From Zoogloea oleivorans (GTDB lineage Bacteria; Pseudomonadota; Gammaproteobacteria; Burkholderiales; Rhodocyclaceae), in assembly GCF_008107625.1 (NCBI RefSeq), contig NZ_SDKK01000021.1, positions 1 through 52,907 on the forward strand: 52,907 nucleotides of DNA, in the 5' to 3' direction. Both the position numbers and the translations under genes were made by a program. The notes below the pieces were generated by a model, which saw only the letters and a program-made list of their open reading frames with translations, did no database searches and was not told the DNA's origin. Shown one piece after another: positions 26,052 through 36,178 of the stretch; position 1 is the stretch's first letter; the number at the start of each line of letters is the position of its first letter.

Positions 26052-26888
26052 CTAACGGTTGGCCTGCAAAGACGCCCGATGAACTTCATCGGGCGTCTTC
26101 AATTGTAGCGAGCAATGCGGTCGCTCCGTGTTGTAGATGGCGATCGACTGACGAACCATGTGCCGGGCCTGATTCAGATCGTCGGGCAGTTGGAGCAGAA
26201 ACTCGTGCTTGAGAATGCCATTGACCCGTTCCGCCAAGGCATTCTGATAGCAGTCGTAGCCGTCGGTCATCGAACAGATCAGTCCGTGTTTCTGGTGAAT
26301 GGCCTGGTACTCATGGGCGCAGTATTGGATGCCGCGATCGGAATGATGAACCAGCGGCTGCTGTCCCTGGCGCCCCTTGAGGGCCATCTTCAAGGCCTGG
26401 CTGACCTCGGCTGTGTGCAGGCTGTCATGGACGTGGTAACCGACGATCTTGCGGGAGTAGGCATCGGTGACCAGGCTCAGGTAGGCGCAGCGCTCCCGGG
26501 TCGGCAGATAGGTGATGTCGGCGACCCAGACCTGCTCGCTGGCTTCGGCCTGAACCTGTTCCGGCCCCGCCTTAAGTAAATTCGGGTGGCGCCGGAAACG
26601 ATGGTGACTGTCCGTCGTCTTGTGATACGCCCGCCGGGGCCGGACCAGCAGACGATTCCCGCGCAAGAGATCGAACAAGGCATCACGCCCGATGCCCAGG
26701 CCTTCGGCCATCAGCGCCGGGCGAATCAGGTGGTGCAGCTTGCGCGTGCCTAAGCGGGGCTGGCGCAAGCGCTTCTCCTTCACCAGGCCCACAATCCGTT
26801 CGTGCCGGGCTTCGTCGCACGCCCGACGGCGCTGCCATTGGTAGTGCGCCTGCCGGCTGATGCCCATGTAGCGGCAAGCCCTCGACAC
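26052..26888 (-). CDS. IS3-family transposase OrfB (DDE integrase core)
   Basis: 278 residues as an independent GTG-started ORF, but normally made as an OrfAB fusion by -1 frameshifting. Catalytic triad D124 (VWVADITYLP), D184 (VHHSDRGIQY) and E220 (NALAERVNG), with 35 residues between the second Asp and Glu, the exact DD(35)E spacing. An HTH_21-like N-terminal part precedes it, and a C-terminal YNTERPHCSLQLKTPDEVH motif is typical of IS3 OrfB. No stop or deletion is visible. Confidence 0.95.
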   Translation of the reverse strand: MSRACRYMGISRQAHYQWQRRRACDEARHERIVGLVKEKRLRQPRLGTRKLHHLIRPALMAEGLGIGRDALFDLLRGNRLLVRPRRAYHKTTDSHHRFRRHPNLLKAGPEQVQAEASEQVWVADITYLPTRERCAYLSLVTDAYSRKIVGYHVHDSLHTAEVSQALKMALKGRQGQQPLVHHSDRGIQYCAHEYQAIHQKHGLICSMTDGYDCYQNALAERVNGILKHEFLLQLPDDLNQARHMVRQSIAIYNTERPHCSLQLKTPDEVHRASLQANR

Positions 26889-26890
26889 CT

Positions 26891-27292
26891 TCAGCCCTTC
26901 GACGGACTTTTGCGCGAGGACTTGCCCACAGGCTTTTTTACGACGTGCACCCCATAGTCCGTCTTCAGCACCTCGATCACCGCTTCAAAGAACCGGGATT
27001 TCTCCCGGGCCTCCTTGAGCTGGACTTCCAGTTCCTTGATCCGCTGCTCGGGCGTGAGCGTCGGGCTGTTCGGGCTTGGGTTCGGCTTACTCATGCGGCC
27101 GTAGTGTGCCATCGGCCCCCAGTTCTGGCGACCGTGCTTGCGTAGCCAGACCAGCACCGTTGATCGACCCTGGATGCCGTACCGGTCCTGCGCCTGCTTG
27201 TAGGTCAGTTCGCCTTTTTCCACTTGCTCGACCACCGCCAGTTTAAAAGCCAGCGTGTAGTCCTTCTGCGTCCTCTTGATCCCTGAGTCCAT
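26891..27292 (-). CDS. IS3-family transposase OrfA
   Basis: 133 residues: N-terminal helix-turn-helix (RTQKDYTLAFKLAVVEQVEK, then GIQGRSTVLVWLRKHG) that recognises the IS ends, followed by a leucine/glutamate-rich coiled coil (LTPEQRIKELEVQLKEARE). In its last part, codons GTA AAA AAG form the A AAA AAG heptamer where ribosomes slip -1 into the orfB frame. OrfA alone usually regulates transposition. Confidence 0.93.
   Translation of the reverse strand: MDSGIKRTQKDYTLAFKLAVVEQVEKGELTYKQAQDRYGIQGRSTVLVWLRKHGRQNWGPMAHYGRMSKPNPSPNSPTLTPEQRIKELEVQLKEAREKSRFFEAVIEVLKTDYGVHVVKKPVGKSSRKSPSKG
26933..26939 (-). promoter_or_regulatory. Programmed -1 frameshift site (A AAA AAG) between orfA and orfB
   Basis: Minus-strand heptamer AAAAAAG in phase with OrfA (GTA AAA AAG). 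Slipping back one base opens directly into the reading frame of OrfB without a stop; orfB codon positions are in the -1 frame relative to orfA. This is the standard IS3 strategy for making OrfAB transposase. Confidence 0.85.
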
Positions 27293-27432: not shown

Positions 27433-27870
27433 TTACCGGCGGGAGAATTTCTCGGAAAGCTTGGTCAGTTTTTCTGCGCGTTCGCGCTCTGCTGCCTCGG
27501 CAGCGGCGGCGGCTTGTTTCTCGGCTTCTTTTTCCTTGCGCTTGGCTGCCAGTTGCTTGAAATGCTCGCGTAGTGTCTGTGCCGCCAGAGCCTTGTGTTC
27601 TGCACTCACTGCATCGGCCGGGCTGCCATCCAGGTTAAAGCGTGTCGCCGCGTTTTGCAGCACCTTGAGGTAGGGCACTGAGCGAGTGTGCATACCGAGG
27701 GTGGATCTCAGCACTTTCTTGCTGATATCAGGCCGCAGCAGCAAGAGTTGCTTGTCGATGCCGATAGCCAACGGCAGGAAATCATGAAAAACCGGGAAGG
27801 CGCCTTGAAGCTCCGAGAGCAAACCCTTTGCGGTCTGTGCGGGAGCTACGCTCTTGTCTGATTCAACCAT
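27433..27870 (-). CDS. ProQ/FinO-family RNA chaperone
   Basis: 145 residues. The ProQ/FinO core spans about residues 15-100 (FPVFHDFLPLAIGIDKQLLL, STLGMHTRSVPYLKVLQ, then FNLDGSPADAVSAEHKALAA), followed by a charged Lys/Glu/Ala helix (residues 105-145) that would add RNA binding. Such proteins bind structured RNAs and mRNA 3' ends, and modulate sRNA action; plasmid relatives (FinO) regulate conjugation. Lies alone between the phasin terminator and the first recombinase gene. Its size fits chromosomal minimal ProQ proteins of betaproteobacteria as well as plasmid types. Confidence 0.85.
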   Translation of the reverse strand: MVESDKSVAPAQTAKGLLSELQGAFPVFHDFLPLAIGIDKQLLLLRPDISKKVLRSTLGMHTRSVPYLKVLQNAATRFNLDGSPADAVSAEHKALAAQTLREHFKQLAAKRKEKEAEKQAAAAAEAAERERAEKLTKLSEKFSRR

Positions 27871-28006: not shown

Positions 28007-29371
28007 TCAGCGGTTTATGTGCTCATCCACAGCATCGACGCTTTGCGCGCGCTCTTCGTCCTGGATATGTACATAGTAGTTGGCCGTGGTCCTGGGATCC
28101 TTGTGGCGCAGTTGATCCGCTGTGGTGGCGATGGGAATGTTGGCAAGCGCAAAATGCGTGCCGCGGGTGTGCCTCAAGGCGTGGGAGGCTGCGCGGCGCA
28201 AGTGCGCTTCCCATTCCGGGTCGACCTGGCCAGCAAAGGGCGCGGCGTAGTGAAAATAGCGTTGCAGTTCCTTGTTCAGATGATCGGCGCTGACGCCGGG
28301 TCCGGTCGCTAACTGGCGATTTTTACGGATGCGCAGAGGCGTCAGCTTGGCAATCAGCGGTACGTCCTTCTCTGTGCTGTCCGGGTAGGCAGGTAATCCT
28401 CGGGCGATCCGGTAACGCATCAAGGCATTCATCGCCGCTTCATTCAGTGTCACGCGATCGGGCGCGTCGACGGCTTTTCTTCCCTTGCCAACAACCTTCC
28501 AGACCCAGCGCTGACCGCTTCGAACAACTGCGTTCATTGTTGTCTCGGCAAGTTCGGCGCGGCGCCCGGCCGAGGCGTAACCAAAAAGCAGCATGCAGCG
28601 GAGTCTTTCCTGGCGCTCAATGGGCCAGCGGGGTAGGGGAGGCATGTCGTCTCGTTTGCCAGTCTCGCCCGGATCAGGAATCCGCCAGTCGTTTTCGGGT
28701 GCATCGAGAAAGCCTGTCAGCCACCGCCACATATCTGGCGAAAACGCCTTGTCTGCCTTGCTGTTATCCCGGGCGATGGCCTCCTGTCGTTGCTGACGGG
28801 TGTAAGCCTCGGGCGTCAACGCCAGGCTCTGCAAGGCCTCCTGGCTGATTTCCTCTCCGGTCAGCTTACCCAGGCGCAGGTAAGGATTCATGGCCAGGTA
28901 GCCACCTTCATGGAGGTACTTGAAAAAGCCCTTGATAGTGCTGTCGGCCCGTTGGCGACTGCCGATGGCCAGCCCCTGCAGCACCCGCAAGCCGGAACCC
29001 GGTGGGGTTTCCATCAGCTTGAACGGAAGGTAATCGGCAGGCCAGCCTTGCGTGGGTAATTCCGGGTTCGTGAGCCAGACCCGGAAAGCTTCGAGATCAC
29101 CGTCGGTGGCACTCGAAATCGCCCGCCCGCGAATCCACACCATGAATGCCAGAAAGCGTCTTATTTCAAGTAGATAAGCCCGTCGGGTGTGGTTGTTTTT
29201 GGCTTTGGTGCTCAACCATATCAGGATGGCCTGCACATCGTTGTCAGCCCCCAGGGAGTTCGTCGTCGGCAGACCGCGCTGGGTCCCGTTTGCACCGATG
29301 AGGGCTTCAGGCAAGCCGGCAAACCAATGTCCGGCTTGGTCTGGATCAACAGTCAGGGCGCAGGAGGGCAT
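28007..29371 (-). CDS. Tyrosine recombinase (int1)
   Basis: 454-residue site-specific recombinase. N-terminal SAM-like DNA-binding region (AILIWLSTKAKNNHTRRAYL), then a catalytic domain with the full active-site set: Arg in AGRRAELAET, Lys in VVGKGRKAVD, HALRHTRGTH (H-x-x-R), His in QLRHKDPRTT and nucleophile Tyr in TTANYYVHIQ. It carries an extra ~60 residues between core and N-terminus compared with int2 and int3 below, to which it is related. Divergent from kfrA1; the 180-base gap between them holds nested palindromes. No tRNA or obvious att site adjoins it. Substrate site unknown. Confidence 0.9.
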   Translation of the reverse strand: MPSCALTVDPDQAGHWFAGLPEALIGANGTQRGLPTTNSLGADNDVQAILIWLSTKAKNNHTRRAYLLEIRRFLAFMVWIRGRAISSATDGDLEAFRVWLTNPELPTQGWPADYLPFKLMETPPGSGLRVLQGLAIGSRQRADSTIKGFFKYLHEGGYLAMNPYLRLGKLTGEEISQEALQSLALTPEAYTRQQRQEAIARDNSKADKAFSPDMWRWLTGFLDAPENDWRIPDPGETGKRDDMPPLPRWPIERQERLRCMLLFGYASAGRRAELAETTMNAVVRSGQRWVWKVVGKGRKAVDAPDRVTLNEAAMNALMRYRIARGLPAYPDSTEKDVPLIAKLTPLRIRKNRQLATGPGVSADHLNKELQRYFHYAAPFAGQVDPEWEAHLRRAASHALRHTRGTHFALANIPIATTADQLRHKDPRTTANYYVHIQDEERAQSVDAVDEHINR

Positions 29372-29469
29372 ATGAGGCTTGATGTGTGCATTCTTCTATT
29401 TTACAGGTGCAGCTCGGATATGGCTAAAAATTCTGATAATTACGATACTCACGATTATTTGTTACATAA

Positions 29470-29496
29470 GCGCAATTAAATTGCGCAATGGCGCAA
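29470..29496. promoter_or_regulatory. Nested palindromes before kfrA1 (candidate operator)
   Basis: GCGCAATT-a-AATTGCGC (29470-29486) is a perfect 8-base dyad, overlapped by TTGCGC-aatg-GCGCAA (29481-29496). They lie between the divergent int1 and kfrA1 genes. Plasmid KfrA proteins repress their own promoter through such dyads (family knowledge), so this is a good binding-site candidate, but binding is inferred. Confidence 0.55.
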
Positions 29497-29551
29497 ATTT
29501 ATGGACAATCCATGCAAAATTAAACTAATGAACCAAGGCGGCTGGAAAACG

Positions 29552-30598
29552 ATGGCAAGCGCAATCACTTACGAAATGGTCGAAAAGGCCTGCAACGATC
29601 TTCAGGCGGCCGGTGAAAAAGTGACCTACCTGAAAATTCATGAACACCTCGGGCAAGGTTCGACCCGAATCGTGACGGCGCATATGCGGCGCTGGCGCGA
29701 GGCACACATGACTGCAGCGCGTGCCGGCGAGGACCTGCTTTTCCAGGAGTGGCCCGAGGCGCTCAAGCTGCGTGCGAAAAGCCTCTTCGATGCTTTGCGG
29801 GAGGTATCGGCCGATGCCGCAACGGCCTGCATAGAGACGGCACAGGCCCAGATGGCGTTGAAGGAGGCTGAGTTGCGCACGTGTGTCGTTGACGCAGAGG
29901 TCCAGCGCGAGCAAGCGCTGGACCAGTTGCGGTCAGAGCAGGCCAATTCCAGCCGGCTGCAGGCAGAGCTGGAGTCGGTCAGGGAAACGCTGGATGTGCA
30001 GCGCGCCACTATTGATGACCTGCTTGGTCAGCGGGAACGCATGGTGGCCAACGAGCGTGCGCTGAAGGAGCATCTGGAAAGCGTTCAGCGGGAACATGAA
30101 GGGCACATCCGCGAACTTGGCGAGCAAACCCGTGTTGAGCGGGAGCGCCTGATCGACGAAGTCCGCAAGGAGCAGGAGCGCGCCGCCGGAGAGCGGGAGC
30201 ACCTGATGCGTCAGACCGACCGGCTGCGCCAGGACTACGCAACCCAGGTTCAGGAGTTTCGCGGAAAGCTGCTGGCCATTGAGACAAAGGAAATCAAAAC
30301 GCGGGAGCAACTCGCTGAGGCCAGCGGACTCAACCGTGAACGCCTGGCCACGATTCGTCAGTTTGAAACCCGGGTCGCCGAATTGAGCGCAAGCGTCGAG
30401 AAGCTTCAGGCCGAAGCCGGCACCCTGGCACAGACACGGACGGGCGATACCGCCAGGTTGTACGCGCTGGAAATGCAGCTGGTTTTGCAGGAGAAGGCGT
30501 TATCCCGCGAAACCGAGCGTGCCAACCGTGCCGAAGAGCGCTTGCAGCAAGTCACCCTGCAGCGGATTCAAGCACAGGATTCGACACCGGACGTGTAG
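29552..30598 (+). CDS. KfrA_N-domain coiled-coil DNA-binding protein (kfrA1)
   Basis: Start ATG 29552 chosen by alignment with the second copy (kfrA2), giving 348 residues; in-frame ATGs at 29501 and 29528 lack ribosome sites. Residues 1-100 form a KfrA_N type helix-turn-helix domain (ITYEMVEKACNDLQAAGEKV, IHEHLGQGSTRIVTAHMRRW). The rest, about 240 residues, is almost pure Glu/Gln/Arg/Leu coiled coil. Plasmid KfrA is an autoregulating, oligomerising protein linked to stable inheritance. Here it is chromosomal and paired with int1 (divergent) and int2 (convergent, 9 bases apart). Confidence 0.82.
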   Translation: MASAITYEMVEKACNDLQAAGEKVTYLKIHEHLGQGSTRIVTAHMRRWREAHMTAARAGEDLLFQEWPEALKLRAKSLFDALREVSADAATACIETAQAQMALKEAELRTCVVDAEVQREQALDQLRSEQANSSRLQAELESVRETLDVQRATIDDLLGQRERMVANERALKEHLESVQREHEGHIRELGEQTRVERERLIDEVRKEQERAAGEREHLMRQTDRLRQDYATQVQEFRGKLLAIETKEIKTREQLAEASGLNRERLATIRQFETRVAELSASVEKLQAEAGTLAQTRTGDTARLYALEMQLVLQEKALSRETERANRAEERLQQVTLQRIQAQDSTPDV

Positions 30599-30607
30599 TT
30601 CAGTCCT

Positions 30608-31795
30608 TCACCACGCGAGGCGGTGTTTCTCCTCGGTATCCTTGTGGCGGCGGTCATCTTCGGAATGCAGGTATTTGCTGGTCGTGGAGATCGACTCGTG
30701 CCCGAGGTTGTCGCGCACATGCCGCAGATCCATTGCTGCGCTCAGCATGTTCGATCCCGCCGTGTGGCGCAGCCAGTGCGCCGACGCGGCGCGCAGCCGT
30801 TGGGCGCGCTCGGTGGATTCAATCCTGCCGTCGTCTTCGATGCGCCGCGCCGCGCTTTCAAAGACCTGCTTGACGATCAGATGCACCGCGCTACGGGTCA
30901 TGGCGCGCTGTTTGCTGCCAATCGGCAAAAGAAGCGGCGTCGATTCGCCGGCCAGTGGATAGGGTGTCAGGCCGTTTTCGCGGCGAAAGCGGGCCAACTC
31001 AATCATGAGCTCGGCGGTGGCCGGAAGAATTCGCGTCTTGTCGCCCTTGCCGACGATCTCCAGCCACCAGCGGTGTTCGCCGTCCGTGTCCGTGCGGCCA
31101 AAAAAGCCGCCCATGGTGTTGCCGATGACCTCCGAAATGCGCATCCCGGTGAGATAGAGCAGTGAAAACAGCCAGCGCACGCGAAAATAGTGCTGGCGCT
31201 CCCGGTCTGTTTCCCGGGGCATGCTGTCAATGCTGGTTTTGACCGCCTGCCACAAGTCCTGATCGAGGTAGCGGGTGATGCGTGGCTGGGCCTTGCGCTG
31301 GCGCTGTCGGGACAGGGACAAGGGATTGCCGGCCAGATAACCTGCATGAACCAGCCAGCCGAACAGCGAATTCAGGATAATGATGGCCTGACGCTGGCTG
31401 GTAGGGGCCAGAGGGCCGGCGAAGGGGCGCCATTCGGGTTCGGAGCGCGCCCATTTTCGGCCGGTTTTCATGACCCAGTGCTCGGCGGGTTGAGGGTCGG
31501 CGAGAAAGCGCTGATACACGAGCAGATCTTCGTGGATAAGCGAGGAGAGAGGTTTGCCGAGTTCAACCACCGACCACAGCAGGAGCCGTTCGGCTTCCTT
31601 CCGGTAGCTGTCGAAGGTGGTCTTCTTGTCGGCAAAGCGTGCCAGCCAGGCGCGAAGGGCGTCCACGTCATGCTGTGCAGCGATTTGCGGGTGGGTACCT
31701 GTGCCGCGGTTACTGCCGTTGCGGCCATCAAGATCCTCGGACAAATCAAGGGATTCGATGGGCACCGGCGCCATAAGTCGTGTGAGCTTGCTCAA
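30608..31795 (-). CDS. Tyrosine recombinase (int2)
   Basis: 395 residues from a TTG start, or 388 from ATG 31774; neither has a clear ribosome site. Related to int3 along its whole length (both share DSYRKEAERLLLWSVVELGK-type and WRPFAGPL segments). Catalytic set complete: Arg in TGMRISEVIG, Lys in IVGKGDKTRI, HWLRHTAGSN, His in DNLGHESIST and Tyr in TSKYLHSEDD. It faces kfrA1 tail to tail with 9 bases between stops. Upstream lies a long gene-free region whose first 100 bases contain inverted repeats. Confidence 0.9.
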   Translation of the reverse strand: MSKLTRLMAPVPIESLDLSEDLDGRNGSNRGTGTHPQIAAQHDVDALRAWLARFADKKTTFDSYRKEAERLLLWSVVELGKPLSSLIHEDLLVYQRFLADPQPAEHWVMKTGRKWARSEPEWRPFAGPLAPTSQRQAIIILNSLFGWLVHAGYLAGNPLSLSRQRQRKAQPRITRYLDQDLWQAVKTSIDSMPRETDRERQHYFRVRWLFSLLYLTGMRISEVIGNTMGGFFGRTDTDGEHRWWLEIVGKGDKTRILPATAELMIELARFRRENGLTPYPLAGESTPLLLPIGSKQRAMTRSAVHLIVKQVFESAARRIEDDGRIESTERAQRLRAASAHWLRHTAGSNMLSAAMDLRHVRDNLGHESISTTSKYLHSEDDRRHKDTEEKHRLAW

Positions 31796-31840
31796 GGTTG
31801 CGTCTACCGGGTTTGCGGACCAGCTTGTCCGTCAAGATGA

Positions 31841-31875
31841 CTGTATATTTCGACAGTATAAGGATAATGTCGAAA
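31841..31875. promoter_or_regulatory. Dyad cluster upstream of int2
   Basis: TTTCGACA (31848-31855) and TGTCGAAA (31868-31875) are perfect complements 12 bases apart. The preceding CTGTATAT (31841-31848) recurs upstream of int3 at 36163-36170. Position 46-80 bases before int2 suits a promoter/operator or a recombinase-binding site. Confidence 0.4.
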
Positions 31876-32420
31876 GTTATGCAGATTTCTGAAGCGGGGC
31901 ATGTGCACTTCAGCCGCAACCCGTTGTTTGCGCCACCATTTTCAGAAATACCGTACATACGCAAGTGAATCGACCGTGTGCGTGCCTGGCTCAATCAACC
32001 CTGATTTGCCCTGACGCAAACACTTTGCAGGGTTGCTGAGATCGGCTCCTCCGAAGGCTTTGATGCGCCAGACGGGGAGAAAAGTATCAGCCCAATTGGT
32101 CATGAAAGAAGGAGTCAGCATCAAGACTCTCTCCCGTATCGACCTTGACCGTACCCCGCTTGGGGAACGTGGAACGGGTCAAACAAAGGCCTTATCAAGG
32201 CCGGGAAGACATGTGGCCTCTTCGCCGAGTACGGTTTGTCGTCGATCTGGCGGCGTGCGCCAATCTAACCGGGATCCTGAGCATCCTCCCCGATACTGCT
32301 GACGTGTGAAAGCCAGCTTGCTCAGAGACCAGGTGGAGGACAACTCATAAAGGCTACAGAGCACCAAACGTTGAACTACCGCGCTTCTGCCGTCAGCAAG
32401 GCTAAATTTCATGCATTATA

Positions 32421-32454
32421 TTAACTTCTGAAAATTACTGTTTTCAGAAGTTAA
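32421..32454. repeat. Perfect 14-bp AT-rich inverted repeat before prpF
   Basis: Arms TTAACTTCTGAAAA and TTTTCAGAAGTTAA around the 6-base centre TTACTG. Its TTTTCAGAA half is also present at 31939-31947. It could be an operator, a recombinase core site with two half-sites, or a weak terminator; the sequence does not decide. Confidence 0.6.
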
Positions 32455-32531
32455 AGTTAAATAAAGCTTTAGATAAGCTCTCTTGTACTCTGTTTCATAA
32501 TGTTTGCTTTTTGCAGCTCTCCTCCAAACCC

Positions 32532-33689
32532 ATGACCCAGCTCCGCATCCCTGCTGTTTATATGCGTGGGGGCACTAGTAAAGGTGTCTTCTTCCTGGCA
32601 GACGATCTTCCTGTAGACCTCGCCGCTCGTGACCGCATTCTGCTTCGGGTCATCGGCAGTCCCGACCGCTACGGCAAGCATATCGACGGGATGGGCGGTG
32701 CGTCGTCGAGTACCAGCAAGGTTGTGCTGGTGTCCCGCTCGCAGCGGCCGGATTGTGATGTGGACTACCTGTTCGGTGCAGTCGCCGTGAACAAGCCGGT
32801 CATCGACTGGTCGGGCAACTGCGGCAACCTGAGTGCTGCCGTCGGACCTTTTGCGATTCACGCCGGTTTGCTGAATGCGCCGGCGGATGGTGTGGCAACG
32901 GTGAGAATCTGGCAGGCCAACATTGGCAGAAAAATCCTGGCACATGTCCCGATGGTTGATGGCAAGGTGCAGGAAAACGGTGACTTTGAACTGGATGGCG
33001 TTACGTTTCCGGCAGCGGAAATCCGGCTCGAATTTCTGGACCCTGGCGCCTGCGATGACGCCAATGGTTGCAATCTCTTTCCAACCGGCTCGCTGGTCGA
33101 CACCCTGATGGTGCCTGGGCTGGGAGGGATTCCGGCAACGCTGATCAACGCCGGCAATCCGACGATTTTCATTGAAGCCGGGTACCTTGGTTTGAGTGGC
33201 ACGGAGCTGCCAGCTGCGGTAAATGGCAATCCGGGTCTGCTTGCCCATGCCGAAACGATTCGTGCTGCCGGTGCCGTTGCGATGGGCCTGGTGAGCACCG
33301 CTGCTGAAGCAACGAAAACGCGTCCGCACACGCCCAAGCTTGTGCTGGTGGCGCCGCCCGACACCTATCGGGCCTCAGACGGTAAGCAGGTAATGGCCGC
33401 AGATATCCAGTTGCTGGTGCGGATTTTCTCGATGGGCCAGCTACATCACGCCATGACAGGGACCGGCGCGGTCGCCATCGCGGCGGCAATGGCAATTCCA
33501 GGGACGATGGTTCAACAGGTGGCGACCCCGGCCCCAGCCGGACAGACCTGCTTTGGTCACCCGTCCGGCACTTTCAGGGTAGGGGCCGAGGCCTACGAGA
33601 CAGCCGATGGGTGGAAGGTGAGCAAAGTCATCATGAGCCGCTCCGCGCGGATTCTGATGGAAGGCTGGGTGCGAGTACCTGCCGACTGA
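32532..33689 (+). CDS. prpF: PrpF-family isomerase (2-methylaconitate/3-methylitaconate type)
   Basis: 385 residues from ATG 32532. Diagnostic N-terminus (IPAVYMRGGTSKGVFFLADD), then IDGMGGASSSTSKVVLVS, VDYLFGAVAV and NCGNLSAAVGPFAI, as in PrpF, which shifts the double bond of 2-methylaconitate in the 2-methylcitrate route of propionate use. PrpF relatives act on other unsaturated di/tricarboxylates, so the substrate is not fixed. Neither prpB, prpC nor acnD is near; the gene is isolated between int2 and kfrA2 and converges on kfrA2 with an 18-base gap. Possibly cargo of the accessory region. Confidence 0.85.
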   Translation: MTQLRIPAVYMRGGTSKGVFFLADDLPVDLAARDRILLRVIGSPDRYGKHIDGMGGASSSTSKVVLVSRSQRPDCDVDYLFGAVAVNKPVIDWSGNCGNLSAAVGPFAIHAGLLNAPADGVATVRIWQANIGRKILAHVPMVDGKVQENGDFELDGVTFPAAEIRLEFLDPGACDDANGCNLFPTGSLVDTLMVPGLGGIPATLINAGNPTIFIEAGYLGLSGTELPAAVNGNPGLLAHAETIRAAGAVAMGLVSTAAEATKTRPHTPKLVLVAPPDTYRASDGKQVMAADIQLLVRIFSMGQLHHAMTGTGAVAIAAAMAIPGTMVQQVATPAPAGQTCFGHPSGTFRVGAEAYETADGWKVSKVIMSRSARILMEGWVRVPAD

Positions 33690-33707
33690 AGCCCTGCCCT
33701 CCTCCGT

Positions 33708-34751
33708 TCAGGCGCCCTGTTTTTTCAATATGCCGAGCTCGACCAGAGCTTCGGCGAGTGCCGCTTCGGCCCGGTGGGCGCGGGCAGTTTCGGCCAGACG
33801 CACATCCTCCACGGCCCGGGCCCGCGCTTCAGCCGCTGCGACAGCCGATTCCTTGCCGTGGGCTGCTTCGCTGGCCACCTTGAGCTGAGCCTGCAAGCGT
33901 TCGATACGGCCTTCGGCTGCAGCCAGCGATGTTTCGCTCTGACGAGTGCGGGACACCGCTTCACGCAGGGCGGCCTTCGCTTCCTCGGTCTGTTCGCGCT
34001 GCTTGGTTTCACGCTCTTCGCGGTTAGCAATTTGCTGACGCATGGAGGTGATTTCGGCCAGCTTTTCCTGGCGGGCCTGGTCAATTTGGCGCATCAGCAG
34101 CTCACGGTCTACCGCGCTGCGATCCTGCTCCTCTTTCAGGGACGCGGCGTAGCGGTCCCGGTCGTTCTGCAAAAGACGGGTCAGGCGCTCGGATTCGGTA
34201 ACGAATTTCTGATCACGAACGTCCACCGCCTCTTCAAGCTGTTTAATCCGGATCTCCAACGCCTCGCGTTGACGGTGCAATTCCAGAGCCTGGCTACGCA
34301 ACTCGGAAATCGTGCTTTCGCAGGCCTGGACGCCCTGATTGAGGGCTCCGATGTGCGCTGTTGCCTGGGCGGCTTCGGCTTCCATTTGCAGAATGCGCTC
34401 ATCAGCAGCTTGCAGTCTGGCGCGGACACTTTCCTGCTCTTTTTCCAGTTCCTCGCGCTGAGTGGCAAAAACCAGGTCGGCGCTCTGCAATGCCAGCGAC
34501 CAGATGCGGGCCATGAAGGCATCCACGGAGGGCACCAGCTCGTCGGGCATGCCGGGTATGCTGCGTTGACGAAAGAAGGCCGCACCGGTTTCCCGTCGCC
34601 ACTGGTCCATGTAGCGTTGGACGATTTCGCTGGAGCCCTTGTTGCCGAGCTCCGCGTAGACCAGATTGAAAGACGGGTTCTCTCCCTGGGAGAGTAACTG
34701 GAAGCAGATCTGTTCAACTGACTCAAAGTTGACGCTGCTGCTACGTGCCAT
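33708..34751 (-). CDS. KfrA_N-domain coiled-coil DNA-binding protein (kfrA2)
   Basis: Second KfrA-like protein, 347 residues from ATG 34751 (GGGAG ten bases upstream; an ATG seven codons earlier is less likely). The N-terminal domain (VNFESVEQICFQLLSQGENP, YAELGNKGSSEIVQRYMDQW) aligns with kfrA1 without gaps over ~45 residues. A long Glu/Gln/Arg coiled coil follows (residues ~105-330). It lies downstream of int3 on the same strand with a 127-base gap containing direct repeats that may be its operator. A structural, nucleoprotein-forming role is inferred. Confidence 0.82.
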   Translation of the reverse strand: MARSSSVNFESVEQICFQLLSQGENPSFNLVYAELGNKGSSEIVQRYMDQWRRETGAAFFRQRSIPGMPDELVPSVDAFMARIWSLALQSADLVFATQREELEKEQESVRARLQAADERILQMEAEAAQATAHIGALNQGVQACESTISELRSQALELHRQREALEIRIKQLEEAVDVRDQKFVTESERLTRLLQNDRDRYAASLKEEQDRSAVDRELLMRQIDQARQEKLAEITSMRQQIANREERETKQREQTEEAKAALREAVSRTRQSETSLAAAEGRIERLQAQLKVASEAAHGKESAVAAAEARARAVEDVRLAETARAHRAEAALAEALVELGILKKQGA

Positions 34752-34826
34752 GAAACAGACTCCCTCGTTCACTTACATTGCAAAAAAGTGCTTCAAGGGA
34801 ACGATAGCATACGTCCAGCCCCGTAA

Positions 34827-34848
34827 AACGTTACATTTATAACGTTAC
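34827..34848. promoter_or_regulatory. Direct repeats upstream of kfrA2 (candidate operator)
   Basis: AACGTTAC occurs at 34827-34834 and 34841-34848, 14 bases apart; its AACGTT core is itself palindromic. The pair lies 76-97 bases upstream of kfrA2, between it and int3. Consistent with an autorepression site of a KfrA-type protein; not proven. Confidence 0.45.
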
Positions 34849-34878
34849 TAAAGAGACGCTTCTTGTTTCGGGCGAGCT

Positions 34879-36093
34879 TTATTTTTCTCCTGCCCAAGGC
34901 AGACGTTGCTTCTGGGCTTCGTCGTGCCAGCGTTCTTCCTCTTCGTGGATGTAGCGCTGGGTGGTACGGGCATCCGAGTGGCGAGCGTCTTTTTGCACAA
35001 AGCGCTCGTCGATTCCACTGTCGAGCTTGGCGGTGATACCTGTGTGGCGGCCCCAGTGGGCCGAGGCGGCACGCAACTTTTCCTTTTTGTATTCGACCTC
35101 CGGCGGCAGCAAGTCGGCCGCTGCGTTAAAAATCTTCTTCAGAATCTGGTTGAGGCGTCGGGCGGTAATGGGGCTTCCATCCTTCACCGAGACGAGAATC
35201 GGGGTGGTGTCGTCGCGCCGCGGGATGGCGGTGAGGCCAAGATATTTGCGGTAACGGATCAGCGCTTGAAGCATGTCTTCGGCTACCGGCACCTTGGCTT
35301 TCTTGCCGCCCTTTCCGACCACGTGCCACCACCACAGGCCACGTTCTTCGCGGAAACTGTTCATGCGGTGGCTTTCGAGTTCGCCAGCCCGGGGCGCGAG
35401 CATGTAGAGCGTGGCGGCGAGGAAACGCGCCCGCTCGTACTCGTCACGCCCCCGTTCGGTGTCTCGGGGCATGGCTTCGATGGCGGCGGTGACGGCTTCC
35501 CACATCTGCCGATCGAGGAAACGCTCGATCTTTTCGACTTCCTCGGTGCTGGCCACCGCACGCAACGGGCCAGTGGCTTCAGCCGACATCTTGCGGCGGC
35601 GCTGGCGAATCAGGCCAAGGGGATTCCCCAGCAGATAGCCCGCATCGACCAGGTAGCGCATCAGGGAATTGATGGCAGCCATGGCGGTGAGCGTGGCGCT
35701 CTCGCTGAGGGGGCCGACGAAAGGGCGCCACCGCTCGGAGATGCGCTCTGCTTTTGGTCCGCACCATACTGCTGACGGTTGGGGGTCAGCGAGAAAGTTG
35801 AGATAGCCTTCGAAATCCTGCCGGTTGAGGCTCGACAGGGGCTTGCCGCAATCGATCAGTGACCACAGCAGCAGACGCTCGCATTCCCGCTGGTAAATCC
35901 GGTAGGTGCCCGGAGAGCGGTCGTATTCGACCAGAAAGCAGCGGATTGCGTCGGCGTCGCAGTTGGCACTGATTTGCAAGCGTGCCGGGTCGGCCCGGTT
36001 GTCGCCGTGGCGACCATCCAGTGCGGGGGGGATACTCACCTCGTCAAGGGGGCGGACGGGGATGATCGTGGCGGCGGGAGTCGTCGTTTCCAT
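34879..36093 (-). CDS. Tyrosine recombinase (int3)
   Basis: 404 residues from ATG 36093; the frame is open to 36213, but those codons cover the likely promoter. Homologous to int2 throughout (YQRECERLLLWSLIDCGKPL, WRPFVGPLSES). Catalytic residues: Arg in LAPRAGELES, Lys in VVGKGGKKAK, HWGRHTGITA, His in DARHSDARTT and Tyr in TTQRYIHEEE. Upstream half-sites TACAG / CTGTA / TACAG (36151-36178) could bind a recombinase or regulator. Followed by kfrA2 on the same strand. Confidence 0.9.
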   Translation of the reverse strand: METTTPAATIIPVRPLDEVSIPPALDGRHGDNRADPARLQISANCDADAIRCFLVEYDRSPGTYRIYQRECERLLLWSLIDCGKPLSSLNRQDFEGYLNFLADPQPSAVWCGPKAERISERWRPFVGPLSESATLTAMAAINSLMRYLVDAGYLLGNPLGLIRQRRRKMSAEATGPLRAVASTEEVEKIERFLDRQMWEAVTAAIEAMPRDTERGRDEYERARFLAATLYMLAPRAGELESHRMNSFREERGLWWWHVVGKGGKKAKVPVAEDMLQALIRYRKYLGLTAIPRRDDTTPILVSVKDGSPITARRLNQILKKIFNAAADLLPPEVEYKKEKLRAASAHWGRHTGITAKLDSGIDERFVQKDARHSDARTTQRYIHEEEERWHDEAQKQRLPWAGEK

Positions 36094-36150: not shown

Positions 36151-36178
36151 TACAGTGAAGTGCTGTATATAATTACAG
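36151..36178. promoter_or_regulatory. Alternating TACAG/CTGTA half-sites upstream of int3
   Basis: TACAG (36151-36155), CTGTA (36163-36167) and TACAG (36174-36178) form two overlapping dyads sharing the central half. The CTGTATAT octamer (36163-36170) also occurs before int2. They lie 58-85 bases upstream of the int3 ATG. Confidence 0.4.

Follow-up and report, generated by a model that had tools for sequence, protein, structure and literature searches.

The window analysed here, 52,907 nucleotides long, is a portion of an 85-kb contig from the genome of Zoogloea oleivorans. Within it we studied a cluster of tyrosine recombinase and KfrA_N coiled-coil genes, and above all the recombinase gene int3, its neighbour kfr2 and a palindrome at 32424-32451 with the geometry of dif, as a candidate system for chromosome dimer resolution. 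An earlier note on this DNA had described three tyrosine recombinases with complete active sites and two KfrA_N proteins, and this description stands. In the list of open reading frames (ORFs) each of the five genes is uninterrupted, at the coordinates below or close to them. Pfam finds Phage_integrase in int1, int2 and int3 (E = 1.2e-10, 3.2e-18 and 4.4e-12), and both coiled-coil proteins match KfrA_N (3e-13 and 1.1e-19). Residues R235, K261, H346, R349, H372 and Y381 (int3 numbering), which we take to be the catalytic residues of int3, are invariant in a 14-row alignment that includes int1, int2 and int3, and they are unchanged in 20 of 20 Zoogloea int3 genes. The homology between int2 and int3 also proved right, at 37.5% identity; int1 shares about 27% with either, and the two KfrA proteins about 29% with each other. 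Overlooked at that time were the inverted repeats of the window, including the dif-like site between int2 and prpF. Rfam and tRNA scans of the window gave no match.

28007-29371, minus strand: int1, tyrosine recombinase with a lineage of its own, in divergent orientation to kfr1 (Pfam, comparison of loci, tree)
29552-30598, plus strand: kfr1, KfrA_N coiled-coil protein, open frame starting at 29501 (Pfam)
30608-31795, minus strand: int2, tail to tail with kfr1; its tyrosine recombinase represents a third lineage (Pfam, tree)
31848-31875, no strand: inverted repeat of 11-6-11 form with 10 of 11 arm pairs, upstream of int2 and probably the core site of int2 itself (repeat search)
32424-32451, no strand: dif-like site ACTTCTGAAAA-TTACTG-TTTTCAGAAGT, 11-6-11; perfect 14-bp arms span 32421-32454
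32511-33689, plus strand: prpF (2-methylaconitate isomerase), a bystander separating the dif-like site from kfr2 (Pfam)
33708-34751, minus strand: kfr2, KfrA_N coiled-coil protein encoded in the same direction as int3; its open frame extends to 34772 (Pfam, genus loci)
34827-34846, minus strand: S2, inverted repeat AACGTTATAAATGTAACGTT preceding kfr2, a candidate operator for Kfr2 or accessory site (alignment)
34879-36093, minus strand: int3, tyrosine recombinase of 404 amino acids, open frame to 36213, proposed single dimer-resolution recombinase
36163-36178, minus strand: S1, CTGTAATTATATACAG, upstream of int3, LexA-box-like (CTG-N10-CAG form in genus loci)

Distribution of int3 and of XerC/XerD

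XerC and XerD were sought in 60 genomes, 23 of Zoogloea (drafts, 15 of them of good quality) and 37 others of the family or order, with an XerD model (cut-off 329.6 bits) that also detects XerC, as second matches of 206-301 bits. None of the 23 Zoogloea genomes contains an XerC/XerD-level match, the best reaching 176.5 bits with the XerD model. Among the other genomes, 34 of 37 score at least 281 bits; only G027, G051 and G054 do not. Orthologues of int3 are carried by two of these XerCD-lacking genomes, G027 (79%, 731 bits) and G051 (72%, 654 bits), and the best int3 match in the 34 XerCD-positive genomes is at most 141 bits. The two distributions are thus opposite (Fisher test, 0.0045 outside the genus and 1.1e-13 over all 60 genomes, kinship uncorrected). 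The gamma domain of FtsK was found in 57 of the 60, including 49 of 49 good ones. Three XerA/integron-like recombinases of 300 amino acids lie in the own genome (G000:C38:260518, C38:277522 and C94:1907; L181-L183). They were considered as its XerC or XerD and rejected, scoring far under the cut-off, and matches at E of at most 1e-40 occur in only 7 of the 23 genus genomes.

The XerD model was also run on 37 KfrA_N-positive genomes outside the genus, namely 34 of 60 genomes of the class (those with weaker hits left out) and three more. Ten lack an XerD-model match and G127 reaches only 192 bits. Among these 11, int3-like genes of 311-540 bits are present in G085 (64%), G127 (50%) and G154 (42%); G353 has an int3-like gene at 211 bits, and the remainder have matches of at most 131 bits or none. 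Eight genomes (G054, G109, G248, G353, G162, G279, G379 and G173) are KfrA_N-positive with neither an XerC/XerD-level match nor a close int3 orthologue, and additional substitute systems may exist among them. In G109 and G353 a KfrA_N gene is paired with a recombinase resembling the transposon recombinase TnpS.

int3 and kfr2 as a core locus of the genus

int3 is found in 21 of the 23 Zoogloea genomes, at 86-90% identity, and in 15 of the 15 of good quality. Wherever the contig extends far enough, it sits behind ygfZ, mltG, tmk, holB, pilZ, tatD and ank. At the genus loci kfr2 follows in the same direction, except in G020, where the two genes are about 19 kb apart, and in G019, where they lie on different contigs. 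The median ratio of nonsynonymous to synonymous substitution rates (dN/dS) is 0.063 for int3 (20 genes), 0.114 for kfr2 (18) and 0.073 for tatD (19). int3 is a core gene under purifying selection, with a dN/dS like that of a housekeeping gene.

KfrA_N proteins are encoded in 22 of the 23 Zoogloea genomes and in none of 13 other genera sampled from the family. Because int3 occurs in genomes without KfrA_N, as in G027 and G051, kfr2 is not essential everywhere; by analogy, its product is probably an accessory, autoregulated protein. Searches with kfr2 gave weak coiled-coil matches only against defence families and no match in phages. Three draft loci have peculiarities of their own. The int3 of G015 (L050) is broken by a frameshift or stop; the gap of about 19 kb in G020 (L180/L056; G020:C32, 28.1-47.1 kb) includes a NifN-like ORF, recognised by eye; and the 507-bp gap between int3 and kfr2 in G016 (L064) holds an apparent remnant of the G020 insert.

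A dif-like site beside the recombinase

The palindrome at 32424-32451 is a 28-bp site of 11-6-11 form, lying in the intergenic region between int2 and prpF. The window holds one copy, and shuffled window sequences yield 0 such sites. In G027, a complete genome of another genus, three stretches round int3 gave a single 11-6-11 hit of at least 10 arm pairs, AGTTCTGAAAA-ttactg-TTTTCAGAAGT at 3,844,139, 6 kb from int3. It differs from the window site by one arm base, and its centre is identical. Throughout 3.74 Mb of fetched, partly overlapping sequence, searched with at most four arm mismatches and one TCTG or CAGA quartet required, the site matches only at recombinase loci of this kind. It is absent from 797 kb of scattered G006 and G027 samples, and the exact site was not found in viral contigs.

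For 22 Zoogloea genomes an int3 or kfr2 locus was fetched, and 12 of them have the site. Both 10-bp arms are exact in ten of them (G000, G004, G010, G011, G012, G013, G014, G016, G021 and G022), whilst G006 has one mismatch and G009 two mismatches and an altered centre. Usually the site stands directly behind kfr2 or behind prpF. Variants occur about 50 bp upstream of a Variovorax int3 homologue and, in L262, at a distance of 3.1 kb from int3; G085 and L284 have one in the gap between recombinase and KfrA. In the wider family 76 of 79 loci could be scored, many of them related and three being too near contig ends; an 11-6-11 repeat of at least 10 of 11 pairs lies upstream of the recombinase at 21 of the 76, vs 0.0 in shuffles. 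Spacers of 4, 8 and 10 also score (15, 15 and 10 loci), mainly where the same repeats are read in a shifted register; odd spacers give little (1, 3, 0 and 0). The Variovorax homologue (65%), from Variovorax sp. WDL1 (L249/L263), lies on an 816-kb plasmid record; the palindrome upstream is its own, and none of its neighbours is annotated as KfrA_N.

Two further repeats accompany the genes. S2 precedes kfr2, also where int3 is separate; its arms vary and still match each other, and at up to three mismatches it is single-copy in the own genome. The evidence for S2 is an alignment, the automatic finder having chosen other repeats at several loci, and by eye it was not seen at int3 orthologue loci. 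S2 was dropped as a candidate recombination core after the 32424-32451 palindrome was found to be common to several genera. At 20 of 21 genus loci S1 reads CTG-N10-CAG, and its distance from the int3 start ranges from 86 to 123 bp. Pairing between its outer six positions, for which an ordinary LexA box would have no need, is seen in 64 of 126 cells; the own lexA promoter carries CTGTATAAAATTACAT, one letter different. S1 was not found in 479 kb of G027 samples (up to three mismatches) or at 13 orthologue loci (up to four). It was read first as a LexA box and later as a dif core, and either is at most a tentative reading.

Position relative to the replication terminus

A shift of GC (guanine-cytosine) skew from positive to negative usually marks the terminus. 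In G027 the skew is negative in 9 of 9 samples from 0.195 to 1.755 Mb and positive in 10 of 10 from 1.95 to 3.705 Mb; finer samples are positive up to 3.843 Mb, then negative. int3 lies at 3.8368-3.8379 Mb. In contig C7 of the Zoogloea genome G006, the skew samples are positive as far as 382 kb, vary in sign until about 412 kb and are mostly negative beyond, apart from some positive samples far off; the int3-kfr2 locus is at 375-378 kb. The int3 locus is therefore near the terminus in two genera, the terminus being read from sampled skew by the usual rule.

Recombinases paired with KfrA_N proteins

The earlier note had asked whether the pairing of recombinase and KfrA_N genes is conserved beyond chance; it is, and it recurs widely. 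Outside the genus we took 43 KfrA_N genes, the 40 best-scoring (own genome left out) and three more. A recombinase lies divergently upstream, within 214 bp or overlapping, at 18 of them, and at 2.9 kb from one more. For the other 24 no recombinase was detectable with the seeds used, several contigs being short. A search of Genome Taxonomy Database (GTDB) genomes with the int3-family alignment gave 79 int3-homologue loci, 45 of which have KfrA_N. Its placement in this set is adjacent and divergent in 38 cases, co-directional upstream in 1, co-directional downstream in 5 and elsewhere in 3. Such pairs also occur on one Aquicella and one Azonexus plasmid. In the tree, int1, int2 and int3 belong to separate groups, and int3 stands apart from XerD and TnpS, with long branches at the deep joins. 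The recombinases of the window are not recent duplicates but members of separate lineages, in keeping with the earlier note.

A proposed single-recombinase system for dimer resolution

From the gene content, its conservation, the site, the nearness to the skew shift and the absence of XerC/XerD-level genes, it appears quite likely that int3 and the 32424-32451 palindrome act as a single-recombinase chromosome-dimer-resolution system displacing XerC/XerD/dif in Zoogloea and some relatives. Dimer resolution or segregation had been among the functions guessed earlier and agrees with this reading; what looks new is the role of int3, not the composition of recombinase and KfrA_N. When sister chromosomes are joined to a dimer by homologous recombination, Int3 would bind both arms of the two site copies, cut with Tyr381 and swap strands across the 6-bp centre, so that monomers would be restored; FtsK might control Int3. 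Kfr2 would work through S2, as TnpT works through an accessory site, and S1 may render the int3 operon SOS-inducible. The cluster had earlier been viewed as one system, which did not hold up: the genus conserves int3-kfr2 as a core locus, while int1/kfr1 and int2 vary among genomes. We read the window as a core dimer-resolution locus alongside which other recombinase-KfrA modules would have settled. These modules, int1/kfr1 and int2, may be elements making use of the palindrome; int2 also carries an 11-6-11 repeat of its own, resembling those of its relatives.

Several observations weigh against a dimer-resolution role. Of the 22 Zoogloea genomes, 8 (G001, G002, G003, G005, G007, G008, G015 and G017) yielded no site in the sequence fetched round their loci. 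A further 7-16 kb did not reveal it in three of these, and in G001 the contig ends. G019 and G020 retain one arm and the centre only, and in G009 and G013 the site adjoins an int1-kfr1 pair instead of kfr2. Nor was it found in the flanks of about 5 kb of Methyloversatilis loci or within 9 kb beside the int3 of G051. As to gene distribution, int3 is absent from G017 and G018 (80 and 86% complete), G054 has neither XerCD nor an int3 orthologue (119 bits), and related genomes are not independent points. More distant int3-like recombinase-KfrA_N pairs, of about 229-360 bits, occur in the XerCD-positive G115, G252, G423 and G331, and G283 has an int2-like pair; mutual exclusion of int3 and XerCD is true of close orthologues, not of the entire family. 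The terminus, too, is placed coarsely, as G027 has small positive patches at 1-20 and 110-120 kb that locate its shift only within about 3.84 to 0.12 Mb, and the G006 assembly consists of 10 contigs.

We offer more tentatively, as possible rather than probable, a wider scenario. Modules of a plasmid or transposon tyrosine recombinase and a KfrA_N filament protein may have been recruited more than once for chromosomal dimer resolution, replacing XerCD/dif in several proteobacterial lineages, with a Zoogloea version that would be SOS-inducible and a KfrA partner that would help to order the terminus sites.

The strongest competitor, in our view unlikely, is that int3-kfr2 comes from an old plasmid or transposon, as its resolution module, and has been retained with no housekeeping role, the loss of XerCD being unrelated and dimers being resolved otherwise. 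Its composition does resemble TnpS-TnpT, related pairs reside on plasmids and coexist with XerCD, and the 8 of 22 genomes in which no site was found near int3 fit it as well. It sits poorly with the core status and housekeeping-like dN/dS of int3, its constant place behind the holB-tatD cluster, its proximity to the skew shift in two genera and its distribution opposite to XerCD.

A further explanation would make the palindrome solely the attachment site of a mobile element, with int3 as the integrase using it. The int1-kfr1 pairs speak for it, as they recur elsewhere (L060, L071, L073 and L074) and abut the site in L060, L073 and L074, 55-85 bp from the int1 stop; int1, kfr1 and int2 are also beside the site in the window. 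We nevertheless regard it as very improbable, given that int3 is core and not mobile, that most site-bearing genomes have no element flanked by two copies, and that the window has one copy, no second being found round the int1-kfr1-int2 cluster. The palindrome could be both host site and element target, by analogy with dif, a target of IMEX elements (PMC5357621, in part). A DNA-inversion switch, another earlier suggestion for which the three recombinases within 8 kb could speak, is scarcely credible, as the only site copy has no inverted partner in the window and the int3/kfr2 order is constant at most genus loci. Nothing else observed favours a switch, although long reads could not be compared.

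Beside int1-type recombinases a ProQ/FinO-domain gene occurs at three loci (window 27433-27870, L044 10961-11368 and L073 11228-11659). In the window it is adjoined by two neighbouring minus-strand ORFs (26052-27292) that by eye resemble an IS3-type transposase.

Carnoy and Roten, who detected no dif in 12.2% of their proteobacterial species, raised the question of substitute systems (PMC2731167, in part). The locus provides a concrete candidate for Zoogloea and relatives such as G027, with gene, site and position. A dimer-resolution role would tie KfrA-type proteins to the control of recombinases, hint at a possible origin of single-recombinase Xer systems in the resolution modules of plasmids or transposons, and account for the gathering of recombinase-KfrA modules at this spot.

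Comparison with known systems

The composition itself has a precedent, in spite of an earlier statement that no such system was known. Tn4651 on pWW0 carries two divergent genes, L080:30642-31613 and L080:29463-30461, which from size and order we take to be TnpS and TnpT (in the record, a site-specific integrase and a DNA-binding protein). TnpT is a KfrA_N protein (E = 2.6e-26), whereas part of a 2020 paper gives it as without apparent homology (PMC7157771). In the rst region of the transposon, TnpS has a core and TnpT an accessory palindrome (PMC4619425, in part). Both systems thus join a tyrosine recombinase to a KfrA_N helper, and a palindromic core to an accessory site. They differ in that int3-kfr2 is co-directional and chromosomal, while the Tn4651 genes are divergent with the core site between them; int1/kfr1 is also divergent, but the best 11-6-11 repeat between its genes has 9 of 11 arm pairs. 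TnpS has no phmmer match to int1-3 and falls in a separate tree group, and by eye no tnpA was seen among the ORFs listed for 20-44 kb of the window. Among the matches listed in mainly open literature there was no account of this system for Zoogloea, or of KfrA with Xer.

With XerCD/dif the locus shares a 28-bp 11-6-11 site near the terminus and the retained FtsK gamma domain. It differs in having one recombinase, nearly symmetric arms of another sequence and no XerC/XerD-level genes, and int3 groups apart from XerD, which is nonetheless the best PDB match of the int3-family profile, XerH being weaker. XerS/difSL and XerH/difH are alike in having a single recombinase with a site near its gene (PMC2731167 and PMC9765430, each in part).

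The nearest described case is XerL of the Legionellales, likened by its published description; the tree included the Legionellales rows L301 and L247. Legionellales L301 and Aquicella L247, both beside KfrA_N, form with L284, from a metagenome-assembled genome of Myxococcota, the sister branch of int3 (94/78). The part of PMC9765430 that describes dif/XerL reports one recombinase of about 400 amino acids with catalytic Y387/Y389 (Y381 in int3), symmetric uninterrupted arms, a site near the skew extreme and no XerC/XerD, as here. The Zoogloea system belongs to Betaproteobacteria, has a KfrA_N partner and usually keeps its site close to int3, whereas that of XerL lies more than 400 kb from its recombinase (PMC9765430, in part).

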